The notes: generated by a model not told the origin, from the letters alone. DNA of 52,615 nt from Thermincola carboxydiphila (GCA_016841045.1 JAENZX010000024.1:1-52615); one strand, 5' to 3'. Positions 12,046 to 16,434 are shown, counted from the first letter of the stretch. Numbers and translations are program-made.

Positions 12046-12051
12046 AGAGTA

Positions 12052-12075
12052 GAGAGGCCTTCTGGGCCTCTTTTC
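12052..12075 (+). terminator. Rho-independent terminator after zinc-ribbon gene
   Basis: GAGGCC (12054-12059) pairs with GGCCTC (12065-12070), extended by A-T pairs, over TTCTG, followed by TTTTC. Confidence 0.85.
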
Positions 12076-12091
12076 TTATTATTTATTGCTG

Positions 12092-12249
12092 GACAAACCT
12101 TATATTTAGGGCTTTGAGGGTATGGGACATTTCCTCCGGGCGGCAACAGCTCAGCTTGTTACCGGATCGCTTGCGCTCTCCGACAAGCGGATGCCAGACT
12201 CGCCCTTCCGGAAAAGTCCCATACCCTCTTTCCTTTTCGAAGGTTTGTC
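12092..12249. repeat. Structured palindromic repeat, copy A
   Basis: A 158-bp nested inverted repeat. The outer arms GACAAACCTT (12092-12101) and AAGGTTTGTC (12240-12249) match perfectly. Inside, GAGGGTATGGGAC (12116-12128) pairs with GTCCCATACCCTC (12216-12228). Next come TTTCC/GGAAA, GGGCG/CGCCC (12138-12142 with 12201-12205) and GCTTGT/ACAAGC (12154-12159 with 12183-12188). The core from 12129 to 12215 resembles the core of a second copy near 16.3 kb, where the arms differ in sequence but still pair. The frame open across it (12114-12371) is not a gene. Confidence 0.85.
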
Positions 12250-12321
12250 ACCTTTTGGGGAAAGAGGCCAGGAAGGCTGCTTTTACGCGAGAGGAAAATA
12301 AAGATAAAAAGATAAATAAAA

Positions 12322-12465
12322 ATGGAATTAGATGTCCGCGGTGCAGAACTCTCAGAGGCGCAGGTCGATGAATGGTTAGTGGCAGACTATATTAATCAAA
12401 AATTTAGCAAACGCCTATACCAAATAAATAAAGAAAGAAAAACAAGAGGAAGCCTTGAGATATAG
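12322..12465 (+). CDS. Small acidic ORF upstream of a winged-helix gene
   Basis: A 47-codon frame opens with ATG at 12322 and reads MELDVRGAELSEAQVDEW and onward to a basic C-terminus. It overlaps the next gene's TTG start by 11 bp. The composition looks protein-like, but no strong ribosome site precedes it. It may be the remnant of a longer gene or a short coupled peptide. Family not recognised. Confidence 0.4.
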   Translation: MELDVRGAELSEAQVDEWLVADYINQKFSKRLYQINKERKTRGSLEI

Positions 12466-12775
12466 GCTTCCGATATTCCAAACCTTCAAAAACTCCAAGC
12501 TGCTTAGTAAAATTCCCGGTGGCGCACTTAAGCTCTATATTTATTTAGGGTTGTCCACGGATAACTGGGGCGTAGTGACCTGGGTTAGCCGTGAAACACT
12601 TATTAAATATTTTCAGAAAGATACCAGGACTGTAGACGGCTGGATTCAAAAGCTAAAGGACCTTAAACTTATTGAACGCATGCAGATGGAAGTAGACGGT
12701 GTATCATATACATTTCTGCGGCCATATGGCAATATACAAGAAGGTGTTACCAATGCGAAAGATATGCATAGATGA
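12455..12775 (+). CDS. Winged-helix DNA-binding protein, probably truncated
   Basis: This 106-residue protein has a helix-turn-helix region (about 22-85: ALKLYIYLGLS, then VSRETLIKYFQKDTRTVDGW) like the N-terminal winged helix of plasmid and phage replication initiators or DnaD-type proteins. TTG 12455 has GAGG about seven bases ahead. After its TGA, the same frame passes a second TGA and then stays open and protein-like to 12901. The gene therefore looks like the surviving front of a longer one. It lies in the repeat-rich accessory stretch and may derive from a mobile element. Confidence 0.6.
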   Translation: MRYRLPIFQTFKNSKLLSKIPGGALKLYIYLGLSTDNWGVVTWVSRETLIKYFQKDTRTVDGWIQKLKDLKLIERMQMEVDGVSYTFLRPYGNIQEGVTNAKDMHR

Positions 12776-12784
12776 AAGTTATGA

Positions 12785-12901
12785 CGCAAAGTCTTTGTCC
12801 TTGCTGCCTTAAAAGCATATACAGTGGAGACCCTAGAGGACGCAATCCGTGACGTGTGCGGAAGAAAAAATAATTCGCCCCCATATAGGGAGCGAACGTA
12901 A
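12785..12901 (+). pseudogene. Detached C-terminal segment of the winged-helix gene
   Basis: In frame with the preceding gene, after TGA codons at 12773 and 12782, a 38-codon open stretch contains LAALKAYTVETLEDAIRDV and reads like an amphipathic helix. It has no start codon or ribosome site of its own. A competing 26-codon frame (12772-12852), whose ATGA overlaps the upstream stop and which contains CPCC, is possible but weaker. Confidence 0.35.
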
Positions 12902-12916
12902 ATACAAAAAATAAAA

Positions 12917-13043
12917 AGTGGCATTTCTCACCCAAACTCCTTGCGTCTCGGAGTAACTCCGCGCCTTAGCCCGTTCAACCCCTTACGGAGTATTCTACGC
13001 AGCACTGCTGGAGAAAGACCGGCGGACTCTGGGATTAGCCACT
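12917..13043. repeat. Structured palindromic intergenic element
   Basis: Nested complementary segments: AGTGGC (12917-12922) with GCCACT (13038-13043), TTTCTC (12924-12929) with GAGAAA (13011-13016), GCGT (12943-12946) with ACGC (12997-13000), and ACTCCG (12956-12961) with CGGAGT (12986-12991). No reading frame crosses it convincingly. It could be a structured RNA or a palindromic repeat. I did not find a second close copy, though the element at the right edge shares the GGAGTAAC motif. Confidence 0.5.
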
Positions 13044-13172
13044 ATTTTTCATATATTTAAAATCTTGTATAAATAGTTTGCACCAGAAGTGAAGTATTTT
13101 AGTGGTTTTCCACGGTATTTGCCTCTTCTTCATTGGTATTTTGCCACAAAAATAATTAATTTAAACAAGGCG

Positions 13173-13370
13173 ATGAGTGGCAAAAGCGTGAGAGGTTTTG
13201 GTGGAGGGTGCAGCGCTAGGTGTGGGAAGAGTTTGGAGAATGGCAGCAGAACGGAGGTAAAGAAGCCTGCTTACTCCAAGTGTGTTAGGTGCGGGCTTGT
13301 ATATTGCAGTGAGTGTTGGGAGCCGGAGTTTTTTGAGCTTTGTCCGCGGTGTAGTCATAAGTGCTGTTAG
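13173..13370 (+). CDS. Small cysteine-rich putative zinc-finger protein
   Basis: The 65-residue frame carries a regular run of cysteine pairs (CSARC, CVRC, CSEC, CPRC and a terminal CC), as in treble-clef or B-box-like zinc fingers, which argues that it is expressed. The ATG at 13173 has only a weak, close AAGG site. The frame is open upstream to 13089, but that part does not look protein-like. Function unknown. Confidence 0.5.
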   Translation: MSGKSVRGFGGGCSARCGKSLENGSRTEVKKPAYSKCVRCGLVYCSECWEPEFFELCPRCSHKCC

Positions 13371-13568
13371 TTGAAGCTGTAACGGAGTGATTGAGTTGGT
13401 CTTGGACAGCTGAGGCCCGTTTGGGAAGACATCAAACAATCCGGGACAGATTTCGCCGAATTTTCTCGAATTCGGTTGTTTAATGCGCTAATTTAACCGG
13501 AATTATCATATAAAATTACTTTTGCTTTAATTTTTATTTACGTATTTGAAATTACTTCATTTTTTTCC
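13371..13568. other. Intergenic region with a CCGAATT hairpin
   Basis: No gene is seen. CCGAATT (13456-13462) pairs with AATTCGG (13469-13475), flanked by AACAA and TTGTT, giving a hairpin without a T tract. GTCTT and AAGAC around 13399-13429 form another possible arm pair. The rest is AT-rich. Confidence 0.4.
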
Positions 13569-13597
13569 TTTACAAGAATTGTGTTTTAGGGTACAAT
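13569..13597 (+). promoter_or_regulatory. Sigma-A promoter of the small membrane protein gene
   Basis: TTTACA (13569-13574) and TACAAT (13592-13597) are separated by 17 bp, one mismatch each from consensus, about 75 bp before the gene. Confidence 0.65.
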
Positions 13598-13671
13598 CCT
13601 TAACGTAGGGTAAATTTAGATAGTTTTGTTACCAACTTATAATGAGAGATTAAAGGTGGGAAGATTACCTC

Positions 13672-13920
13672 ATGTCAGGTAAAGTAGTCGCTATTATTAT
13701 AGGTTGTGCCGCTCTTTTAATAAATGTCCCGATGGGCTATTGGAGATCCATGGTCAGGAAATACTCATTCCAGTGGTTTCTGGCGATTCATCTGGCTGTC
13801 CCTGTAATCTATATGCTGAGGGTAAAGTCAGGTCTTGGTTATGGATATATTCCAGCCCTCGTGTTATTTGCGTTTATAGGCCAGGTCATTGGTGGTAAAC
13901 TGCCAGGACAGACCGGTTAA
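13672..13920 (+). CDS. Small integral membrane protein, unknown family
   Basis: The 82-residue protein has three hydrophobic segments (about 5-23, 35-50 and 58-75), with a basic loop after the first, and no catalytic motif. AAAGGTGGG lies about 11 bases before the ATG. It has its own promoter and is followed by the M-box leader of corA. I do not recognise a family. Confidence 0.65.
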   Translation: MSGKVVAIIIGCAALLINVPMGYWRSMVRKYSFQWFLAIHLAVPVIYMLRVKSGLGYGYIPALVLFAFIGQVIGGKLPGQTG

Positions 13921-13972
13921 ATTTCTGATTAATACGTAAATGCAAATTCGAGAGTTAAAATTTTATATTCTT

Positions 13973-14133
13973 CGTTAGGTGAGGCTTCTGCATAGATCAC
14001 ACGCTGCTGCCCGGAAATGTCGAGAGACGCCAATGGGTTAACAGGTATTACCGGATTAAGGTTTTATCTAATGCGGCTGGAACGTTTGTATCCTAGCTAT
14101 GCACGTGCTAAAGCTCAGACGAGGGAGATAGGC
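13973..14133 (+). ncRNA. M-box (ykoK) magnesium riboswitch
   Basis: The conserved M-box blocks appear in order: GTTAGGTGAGGCTTCTGC at the start, ACGCTGCTGCCCGGAAATGTC, GAGACGCCAATGGGT, then GCTAAAGCTC and CGAGGGAGATAGGC at the end. This RNA class binds Mg2+ and lowers expression of Mg2+ importers when Mg2+ is plentiful. Its target here is corA, 240 bp downstream, and a terminator follows the aptamer at once. The frame open across it (14017-14223) is not a gene. Confidence 0.93.
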
Positions 14134-14155
14134 ATTTTTATTATGCTATTTTTGA

Positions 14156-14185
14156 GACATCTTCCTCGCAGAAGATGTCTTTTTT
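14156..14185 (+). terminator. M-box expression-platform terminator
   Basis: GACATCTTC (14156-14164) pairs perfectly with GAAGATGTC (14171-14179) over CTCGCA, followed by six T. It sits 22 bases after the aptamer, as expected for Mg2+-induced termination. Confidence 0.9.
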
Positions 14186-14302
14186 GGAGTGTGAAATTTG
14201 ATGGACGGGGCACCTTGTTATAAATGTATTAAAAATAAACAATTTTTTTGGGGAGAACCTTACGTTAGTTGAAAGAAGGCTTTCTTTCACATCCCTTTGG
14301 TT

Positions 14303-14347
14303 AAAACTCCCTTAATTAGTGCGGTGCACTTTTAGGGGAGTTTTTTT
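14303..14347 (+). terminator. Second leader terminator directly before corA
   Basis: AAAACTCCC (14303-14311) pairs with GGGAGTTTT (14336-14344) over a 24-base loop that contains GTGCGGTGCAC, followed by a run of T. It lies in the leader between the M-box terminator and the corA ribosome site. It may be a second attenuator or a decoy with its own antiterminator. Confidence 0.7.
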
Positions 14348-14374
14348 ATATTAAAAATGAAAGGAGTGATTCCA

Positions 14375-15319
14375 TTGATCAAGATTTACAAGTCCAATGA
14401 ATACGGGCAGTTTTCTGAAGTTAACGAAATCGAAAAAGGCTGTTGGATAAATCTTGTGAACCCGAGCGAGTTAGAGATTCTAAGTATTTCACAGAGGTTG
14501 GGAATTGAACCTGACTATATTAAGGATCCTCTCGATGAGGAAGAAAAGTCAAGGGTCGAACGGGACAATGGAACGCTTCTGATTATTGTTGATATACCTG
14601 TGATAAATACGGACGATGACCTGTCGACTTTTGATACAATACCTCTTGGTATGATTGTAGTTGACGATGACTATTTCGTCACTGTATGTTTGAAAGATAA
14701 CCCTATTATCGCGGAATTTGCTTCACACCGGGTTAAGGGCTTTTTTACTTTCAAGAAGACGAGGTTCATTCTCCAAGTGCTGGACAAGATCGCGACCTAT
14801 TACCTCAGATACCTAAAGCAGATTAACAGGGAAACTGACCACATTGAAAGACAGCTTCACAAATCCATGAAAAATCAGGAGTTATTCTCACTGCTCAACC
14901 TTGAGAAGAGCTTGGTATATTTTACAACTTCACTTCGTTCTAATCAAAGTGTTATGGAAAAGATTTTACGGGCAAAGTTTCTTAAGATGTATCCTGAAGA
15001 TGAGGATATTATGGAAGATGCCATAATTGAGAACAAGCAGGCTATAGAGATGGCGCATATATACAGCAACATATTAAGTGGAATGATGAATACTTTTGCA
15101 TCAGTTATTTCCAACAATCTAAACATAGTGATGAAGTTCCTTACTTCAATTACAATTGTACTGTCTATCCCCACAATGGTGGCTTCATTCTTCGGTATGA
15201 ACGTACCACTGCCTTTTAATTTTGAGCATTATAACAATTCTTTTATTTCAATAATTTTCATCACTTTATTAGGTTCAGCTGCTGCAGTAGTATATCTGGC
15301 AAAGAAAAGGATGTTTTGA
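14375..15319 (+). CDS. corA: CorA family magnesium transporter
   Basis: CorA forms a pentameric Mg2+ channel in the cytoplasmic membrane. The 314-residue protein has the large N-terminal cytoplasmic domain and long stalk helix. Two C-terminal membrane segments follow, with the signature GMN at about 274-276 as the selectivity filter and a basic tail. TTG 14375 is chosen because AAGGAGTGA ends five bases upstream; the in-frame ATG at 14357 lies ahead of that site. The M-box and two terminators in the leader indicate control by intracellular Mg2+. A terminator closes the unit. Confidence 0.93.
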   Translation: MIKIYKSNEYGQFSEVNEIEKGCWINLVNPSELEILSISQRLGIEPDYIKDPLDEEEKSRVERDNGTLLIIVDIPVINTDDDLSTFDTIPLGMIVVDDDYFVTVCLKDNPIIAEFASHRVKGFFTFKKTRFILQVLDKIATYYLRYLKQINRETDHIERQLHKSMKNQELFSLLNLEKSLVYFTTSLRSNQSVMEKILRAKFLKMYPEDEDIMEDAIIENKQAIEMAHIYSNILSGMMNTFASVISNNLNIVMKFLTSITIVLSIPTMVASFFGMNVPLPFNFEHYNNSFISIIFITLLGSAAAVVYLAKKRMF

Positions 15320-15325
15320 GACGCT

Positions 15326-15356
15326 AACCCCGCAGAACTGTTGCGGGGTTGTTTGT
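15326..15356 (+). terminator. Rho-independent terminator after corA
   Basis: AACCCCGCA (15326-15334) pairs with TGCGGGGTT (15342-15350), followed by GTTTGTT. Confidence 0.82.
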
Positions 15357-15440
15357 TAATTAGGTTAATTGAATTGATAGTTTATATATGGTAATCTTTA
15401 AGTATGGAAGCACATGTTTGTATTAGGAGAAGCGATAAAA

Positions 15441-16238
15441 ATGAGACGTTTTCTAAATGGTGATTCATACGATACTTCTGCCGGTACTCCCCGCCGCATT
15501 TGGGACCGACTGTCTTTAAACAGCCGCTGGTACTTTGTCTACGGATATGCCAACGAGGTTGTTAAGGCACGTGCCCTGGCGGTAAAGGGAATTTACGATA
15601 CTAAAGCCTGGGTGGAGTCTTCTTATAATATTTTTAGGCTGATTGAAGGGTGTGGGGGCAGAATTCACCTGCGCGGACTGGATAACATCCGAGCGTGCAA
15701 AGGTCCCACGGCTTTCATAAGCAATCACATGAGTACTCTTGAAACTTTCGTTTTCCCGTGTATTATAGCGCCTCACATGGAGGTAACTTTTGTTGTCAAA
15801 GAAAGTCTGGTTAAGCATCCTGTGTTCGGACCGGTAATGCGTGCCCGAAACCCTATAGTTGTTGGGAGAACTAACGCCAGAGAGGATTTTCAAAAGGTGA
15901 TGAGTGAAGGAAAACGCCTGCTTGCCGACGGGACCTCCCTGATTATCTTCCCCCAAAGCACCCGGACTGTCGAGTTCATACCTGAAGAGTTTAACTCTCT
16001 GGGTATCAAGCTGGCAAGAGCGGCCGGTGTGCAGGTTCTGCCCATAGCTATCAGAACTGATTTCTGGGGAAACGGTAAAGTACTCAAAGATCTTGGCCCG
16101 GTTGACCGAAGCGCCCCGATTCATATGACCTTTGGGGAGCCCTTCTTTGTGGAGGGGAGCGGTAAAGAGGAACACAAGAGAGTGGTTGAGTTTGTATCGG
16201 AGCATGTTAGTTCGTGGGGCGTGCCTGTGCGTGTGTGA
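15441..16238 (+). CDS. PlsC-like lysophospholipid acyltransferase, HX4E variant
   Basis: The 265-residue protein belongs to the PlsC/LPLAT superfamily, which adds acyl chains to lysophospholipids or glycerol phosphate. Block I reads NHMSTLE (His96, Glu101), so the usual HX4D has glutamate in place of aspartate. Block III reads FPQSTRT (about 170-176) instead of FPEGTRS. The N-terminal 80 residues are unusually long and poor in membrane segments. ATG 15441 lies about 12 bases after AGGAGA; an ATG at 15414 has no site. It is a single-gene unit ending in a terminator that is interrupted by a structured repeat. Substrate unknown. Confidence 0.82.
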   Translation: MRRFLNGDSYDTSAGTPRRIWDRLSLNSRWYFVYGYANEVVKARALAVKGIYDTKAWVESSYNIFRLIEGCGGRIHLRGLDNIRACKGPTAFISNHMSTLETFVFPCIIAPHMEVTFVVKESLVKHPVFGPVMRARNPIVVGRTNAREDFQKVMSEGKRLLADGTSLIIFPQSTRTVEFIPEEFNSLGIKLARAAGVQVLPIAIRTDFWGNGKVLKDLGPVDRSAPIHMTFGEPFFVEGSGKEEHKRVVEFVSEHVSSWGVPVRV

Positions 16239-16434
16239 AAAAACACCCCGCTTTTTAAGGGGTTAAACTTAGGCTGGATGGGATGGATATTTCCTCCAGG
16301 GTGGCTACAACTCAGTTGGTTTCCCGAATCGCTCCTTCGTCGCTCTTCGACCAACGGATGTCAGACTCACCCTTCCGGAAAAATCCATCCCATCTTTCTA
16401 AAAGTGCCCCCCCGTCGGCGGGGCGTTTTTTCAC
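16235..16434. repeat. Structured repeat, copy B, inside a terminator stem
   Basis: Outer arms GTGAAAAAACACCCCGC (16235-16251) and GCGGGGCGTTTTTTCAC (16418-16434) match at 16 of 17 positions and look like the two halves of the terminator of the preceding gene. Between them lies copy B. GATGGGATGGAT (16277-16288) pairs with ATCCATCCCATC (16383-16394), then TTTCC/GGAAA, GGGTG/CACCC (16299-16303 with 16368-16372) and GTTGGT/ACCAAC (16315-16320 with 16350-16355). The core resembles copy A at 12.1 kb, with paired substitutions in the stems. The right half can also form a short GCCCC/GGGGC terminator hairpin by itself. Confidence 0.85.

Follow-up and report, generated by a model that had tools for sequence, protein, structure and literature searches.

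A covarying hairpin element dispersed at gene 3' ends in Thermincola and its order, probably the mobile structure of IS1182-like insertion sequences

The window analysed here, a stretch of 52,615 nucleotides from Thermincola carboxydiphila (GCA_016841045.1 JAENZX010000024.1:1-52615), carries two copies, A and B, of a structured element that we call R1 after its covariance model (Table 1). An M-box (ykoK) magnesium riboswitch (window 13964-14133, 136.1 bits) lies upstream of an ORF of 320 aa (14357-15319) that, judged by eye, resembles a CorA-type transporter. Both copies are where the preliminary description of this DNA had placed them and both fold strongly, with -76.7 kcal/mol for copy A (z -8.1) and -92.1 kcal/mol for copy B (z -8.8), none of 200 shuffles being as stable in either case. 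That description treated 12092-16434 as a single two-copy element. In fact, this span merely joins two independent insertions, and two copies is an undercount, as the genome holds about 28.

Table 1. Features of the two R1 copies in the window
Feature	Position	Strand	Remark
Hairpin to the left of copy A, the intrinsic terminator of the small gene upstream	12051..12073	+	
Copy A	12092..12249	+	end repeats at 12092-12101 (GACAAACCTT) and 12240-12249 (AAGGTTTGTC) with the structured core between them
Copy A core	12114..12229	+	covariance model R1 match, 126.8 bits
Copy A outer stem	12116-12128 pairs with 12216-12228	+	
Copy A apical stem	12154-12159 pairs with 12183-12188	+	GCTTGT with ACAAGC
Diverged near-copy of the left terminator hairpin, right of copy A	12261..12284	+	
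Copy B with locus-specific outer arms	16235..16434	+	
Copy B left outer arm TGAAAAAACACCCCGC	16236..16251	+	pairs with 16418-16433; inverted match, 0/2000 shuffles
Copy B core	16275..16395	+	covariance model R1 match, 122.8 bits
Copy B outer stem	16276-16288 pairs with 16383-16394	+	
Right outer arm of copy B, a terminator-like hairpin with a T tract	16410..16433	+	

The pairing of the long outer stem, which had been said to differ wholly between the copies, stands; its outermost, locus-specific arms turned out to be largely flanking hairpin sequence and element ends. The two hairpins that flank copy A match each other in inverted orientation (p 0.001), the direct match not being significant (p 0.12), and a target site duplication in the form of a direct repeat is not significant for either copy. 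The flanks of copies A and B are consistent with the duplication of a hairpin, which is no proof of it, as only the inverted similarity is significant.

A BLASTN search with copy A of the host genome (4.16 Mb) returned copies on many contigs. A covariance model with a core of approximately 117 nt, made after alignment of 19 cores, gave the count of about 28 for this genome, together with 49 and 56 copies in two related genomes of the genus Thermincola (G004 and G007, respectively) and 20 in a further genome (G008). Among 61 genomes of relatives, R1 was found in the eight further members of the window's family and in one genome of the same order, and it was absent from the 51 genomes of other families. 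These ten genomes, the host included, were also the only positives in 398 genomes of the phylum. All 10 belong to the order of the window, and R1 spans several genera of this single order. Public contigs with a conserved 24-base pattern of the element were mostly labelled Thermincola and Firmicutes; one Cytophagales contig (L157) with this pattern was set aside as it did not match the model. The plasmids, phages and viral contigs that were searched did not contain the element, and in Rfam no family matched at copies A or B at the gathering threshold, nor did anything match at the element at a relaxed threshold. Inspection by eye showed no obvious ends of the attC type. In the host genome three copies follow one another as direct tandem repeats (C75:190102-190633), each unit being about 205-210 bp long.

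The preliminary description reported near-invariant loops and paired stem changes between the two copies (GGGCG/CGCCC versus GGGTG/CACCC, and GCTTGT/ACAAGC versus GTTGGT/ACCAAC). These are present, and the genome search with a covariance model, a check that it had proposed, extends them to many copies with covarying pairs. The alignment of 19 cores has a consensus of 35 pairs, 18 of which show changes on both sides. In a larger alignment of 107 matches (101 distinct sequences), fitted to the model so that its absolute numbers lean towards structure, 94.7% of the cells are paired and 29 of the 35 pairs change on both sides, many with three or four pair types. The covariation score of 0.519 was equalled by none of 500 shuffles, and fell to 0.05-0.12 when the partners were slid by 1-3 columns; the covariation thus far exceeds chance. 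Outside the variable apex the unpaired positions are close to constant, and between genera there is hardly any change in the asymmetric internal loops and bulges. Two structural variants were observed as well. An extended-apical-hairpin subtype (GGACAACGGGGCTCTAAGCGC or TACCCCAAGGGTACCGCC...AAGCGCT) occurs at three loci of the host genome (L021, L023, L019) and recurs across genera as R1 matches of 165-172 nt in G001, G004, G005 and G007, and copies whose 5' strand carries an extra nested hairpin (GGGGCCCCCAATCCGTTACCG...; G004 C25:500406, and 26440 and 174917 of g7C1, L309-L328) appear 5'-truncated to a half-model.

A comparison of orthologous loci in G007 and G004 revealed shared old copies in addition to gains or losses, as well as apical deletions (L123/L231, L139/L216) and exchanges of the apical hairpin (L096/L114, L097/L118). 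Summed over the eight orthologous pairs in which the apex was not exchanged, 7 of 654 core sites are different (~1%), as against 94 of 910 in the arms next to it and 374 of 3575 in the outer flanks (~10%); the copies were found by similarity, and a divergence of 10% would still have been detected. Over all 13 G004-G007 pairs, helices P2 and P3 differ at 5 of about 310 sites. Such data bear on the question whether the covariation could be purely mutational, with template switching and conversion between palindrome arms keeping these complementary and no selection on the fold. The arms are indeed locus-specific and yet self-complementary, the inverted self-match being the best one in 54 of 98 copies, and whole apical hairpins have been exchanged. 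Nevertheless, arm conversion would erase the asymmetric loops and bulges that are kept across genera, and the divergence of the core is only about one tenth of that of the flanks, and we therefore consider this explanation quite improbable.

Simple ORF calls allowed the placement of 79 copies (nine more overlap a predicted, possibly spurious ORF), and 76 of these lie at gene 3' ends: 31 between convergent genes and 45 in tandem contexts, the remaining 3 being located between divergent genes. The median distance from the end of an upstream sense gene to the copy is 57 nt. In tandem contexts 28 copies are sense and 17 antisense, and no neighbouring gene recurs as a partner, the neighbours being unrelated from copy to copy. 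The element thus has neither the fixed orientation nor the fixed position of a riboswitch or other cis-regulatory RNA. The lagging-strand preference that could be expected of a single-stranded DNA transposase was considered and dropped, the trend being weak and opposite (25 leading versus 12 lagging).

The insertion sites are informative on the way in which R1 arrives. At locus L138 of G007 the element stands where G004, G008 and G001 all have a plain bidirectional terminator, and the site therefore represents a gain in G007 at a terminator. The insertion was not a clean one into the loop, as one terminator arm has been lost. At C3:61498 of G004 a hairpin is found on both sides of the element, and the corresponding site of G007 has one hairpin and no element; the copy at 634 of C38 displays the same pattern, with a single hairpin at the empty site of a relative. 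More generally, eight copies of a young subfamily (with ends TTGACAAA...TTTGTCA), including two with such an empty site, are bracketed by duplicated, locus-specific hairpins of 16-37 bp that score 14-32 against themselves versus at most 11 between loci. Hairpins are present at all three insertion sites that were read, which corresponds to the palindromic targets of IS1182 elements. Older copies can be hit as well: at L133/L264 a new element has replaced the 5' half of a resident, the 3' half of which remains downstream, and at least some of the 3'-half remnants can be explained by a later insertion of this kind. A fold-back inverted duplication of the flanks was rejected as a general mechanism, since the edges of L111 fit a direct duplication of the hairpin; in decayed older copies the inverted similarity exceeds the direct similarity. 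Another dispersed repeat (GTGTTGTACAAGATTTTCCTTGC...GCCGTTATGAGTCTTGCTGC) is nested beside R1 copies in the flanks of L121, L114 and L107 (G007, G004).

The observed behaviour has a published precedent. According to the parts of the original papers available to us, IS1272 and TnSha1 of the IS1182 family transpose into hairpins in a structure-dependent manner, without a sequence consensus and in both orientations; several of the targets are terminators confirmed by RNA-seq, and the target hairpin is partly deleted, no target duplication being reported there (PMC5678879, PMC4923244). R1 resembles these elements, as far as those parts describe them, in its insertion at hairpins that include terminators, in both orientations, and in the partial deletion of the target hairpin at L138 and L133. 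It differs in the eight copies that have a whole hairpin on both sides, an outcome that the same parts of the IS1272 paper give only as pathway b of a model, and in its covarying structure, the like of which was not met in these portions of the descriptions. Moreover, the solo R1 copies lack a transposase.

The resemblance extends to physical linkage, since IS1182-family transposase sequence adjoins R1. In five loci from two genera (G005 C154, C162, C158 and C50, and G007 C2) R1 lies just upstream of such sequence. In four of these the NCBIfam family IS1182 (NF033551) is found directly downstream on the same strand, as read in the sequence for G005 C154 and C162 and taken from coordinates alone for C158 and G007 C2; in G005 C50 R1 is followed by a transposase leader up to the contig end. 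At L060 the left end is followed in turn by R1, a broken transposase and the right end. Each of the transposase pieces beside R1 is either broken or truncated at the end of a contig, and among the sequences read there was no intact insertion sequence bearing R1.

The element ends are in line with this linkage. Terminal inverted repeats are formed by GGGAGTGTCCCATAAGT, by TTGACAAA and TTTGTCA, or by GACAAACCTT and AAGGTTTGTC. With one mismatch allowed, GGGAGTGTCCCATAAGT constitutes the inverted ends of two R1 elements of 233 and 235 bp in G009, and a search for it gave 30 places in four genomes versus 1 for the reversed pattern. The end repeat GGGAGYGTCCCATAAGT, which flanks R1 copies in G009, also stands behind IS1182 transposase remnants in the host genome, the repeat found there having C for T relative to GGGAGTGTCCCATAAGT, and the GGGAGYGTCCC subfamily has both matching ends and IS1182 remnants. 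Inverted GGGAGYGTCCCATAAGT pairs about 40 bp apart, resembling solo end palindromes with no element between them, occur in G005 (C75:27082/27106, C100:2004/2026, C154:28043/28067) and in the host genome (C2:68743/68764). Our search found neither an autonomous parent nor a matching transposase for the subfamily of the window, which has other ends (GACAAACC) and would presumably be served by an enzyme of the same kind. In G002 no R1 match lies near the full-length IS1182 transposases, i.e. the ORFs C97:24766-26265 (525 aa) and C50:122345-123664 (471 aa), and R1 is therefore not universal in IS1182 relatives, even in the order of the window.

Alternatively, R1 could be a SINE-like retroelement or resemble a REP, with its mobility supplied in trans by a reverse transcriptase or by a Y1 (RAYT) transposase. 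Where partial copies occur close to full ones, the missing half is far more often the 5' than the 3' one (14:1), no true 3'-truncated copy was found in 1.98 Mb, and bulged palindromes do recall REPs. The missing 5' half at L133/L264 was, however, replaced by a later insertion, and some other copies that look truncated have internal deletions or are double-apex variants, on which grounds we dropped 5'-truncation as a sign of reverse transcription. As partners, both enzymes were rejected: they occur in some of the genomes, none of the RT or Y1 genes detected has a copy in its vicinity, and G008, with its 20 copies, has no match to RVT_1 or Y1. In addition, the Y1 loci contain no R1 match, and the copy-bearing G002 likewise lacks a Y1 match. 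R1 shares with REP/BIME sequences the character of an extragenic palindrome, but REPs are 20-40 bp according to the part of the source available (PMC3733652), whereas R1 measures about 117-235 bp and is abundant in a genome without a Y1 match. Thus, mobilisation by either enzyme seems very improbable to us.

Short, dispersed, present in many copies and without a transposase gene of its own, R1 has the properties of a MITE. Like the bacterial MITEs and small repeats BOX, RUP, SPRITE, ERIC, bcr1 and the stem-loop families it is non-coding, folded and intergenic, often lies between convergent genes and shows nested insertions (PMC3049150, PMC2267715, PMC10969869). Unlike these families, which are found in one species or genus and have short target duplications, it spans several genera of one order, combines numerous compensatory pairs with fixed asymmetric loops in its core, and duplicates its target over the length of a hairpin. 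The option of a non-autonomous mobile element, raised in the preliminary description, has gained from the many dispersed copies, the presence/absence differences between related genomes, the hairpin duplication at insertion sites and the linkage to IS1182-family transposases; the copy number, the targeting of terminators and the IS1182 link go beyond that description. Since the copies in the window encode no transposase, R1 is filed as MITE-like, working like the hairpin-targeting IS1182 elements, and not as an IS1182 element itself.

Taken together, R1 is probably the structured hairpin of an insertion sequence similar to those of the IS1182 family, and it occurs for the most part in solo, MITE-like copies that are probably moved in trans. 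The best reading is that of a structure in the leader or at the left end of an IS1182-type element, its probable parent. The solo copies, of roughly 160-235 bp and transposase-less, would owe their mobility to an IS1182-like DDE transposase that targets hairpins, namely those of the intrinsic terminators that follow genes or of older copies located there. The target hairpin would either end up on both sides of the element or lose a part, as a consequence of which the element would come to lie within a larger palindrome at a gene 3' end. The folded strand, whether single-stranded DNA, a cruciform or the RNA leader of the transposase gene, most likely serves the recognition or control of the element, its stems drifting through compensatory changes with the internal loops held fixed. 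The active form may be either RNA or single-stranded DNA.

The strong constraint on resident copies is the main point that mobility leaves unexplained. Mobility gives a resident copy no protection, and therefore either a service to the host or another process keeps these copies. R1 could accordingly be seen as a domesticated host 3'-end structure (a terminator, a protection of the mRNA end or a protein-binding site), with mobility in the past and selection accounting for loops and covariation. Such a role would suit the location at gene 3' ends, the many copies common to G004 and G007 and the low divergence of the core relative to arms and flanks. As a replacement for the mobile-element reading we consider it unlikely, as the copies occur in both orientations next to unrelated genes, come and go between genomes, and carry a structure that is linked to transposase sequence; nevertheless, domestication may hold in addition to that reading.

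We tentatively suggest, as a possibility somewhat short of even, that R1 represents a new class of large leader or single-stranded DNA recognition structures of hairpin-targeting IS1182-type transposons that duplicates whole terminator hairpins on insertion and later becomes a constrained 3'-end structure of the host. The sites described here provide natural cases of the duplication of a whole terminator hairpin, the outcome drawn as possible in the published IS1272 model, next to sites of partial hairpin loss that match the published behaviour of IS1272 and TnSha1. They tie hairpin targeting to a large covarying nucleic-acid structure, the role of which is directly testable, and suggest that transposon-derived structures may take over the 3' ends of genes and then stay strongly constrained.
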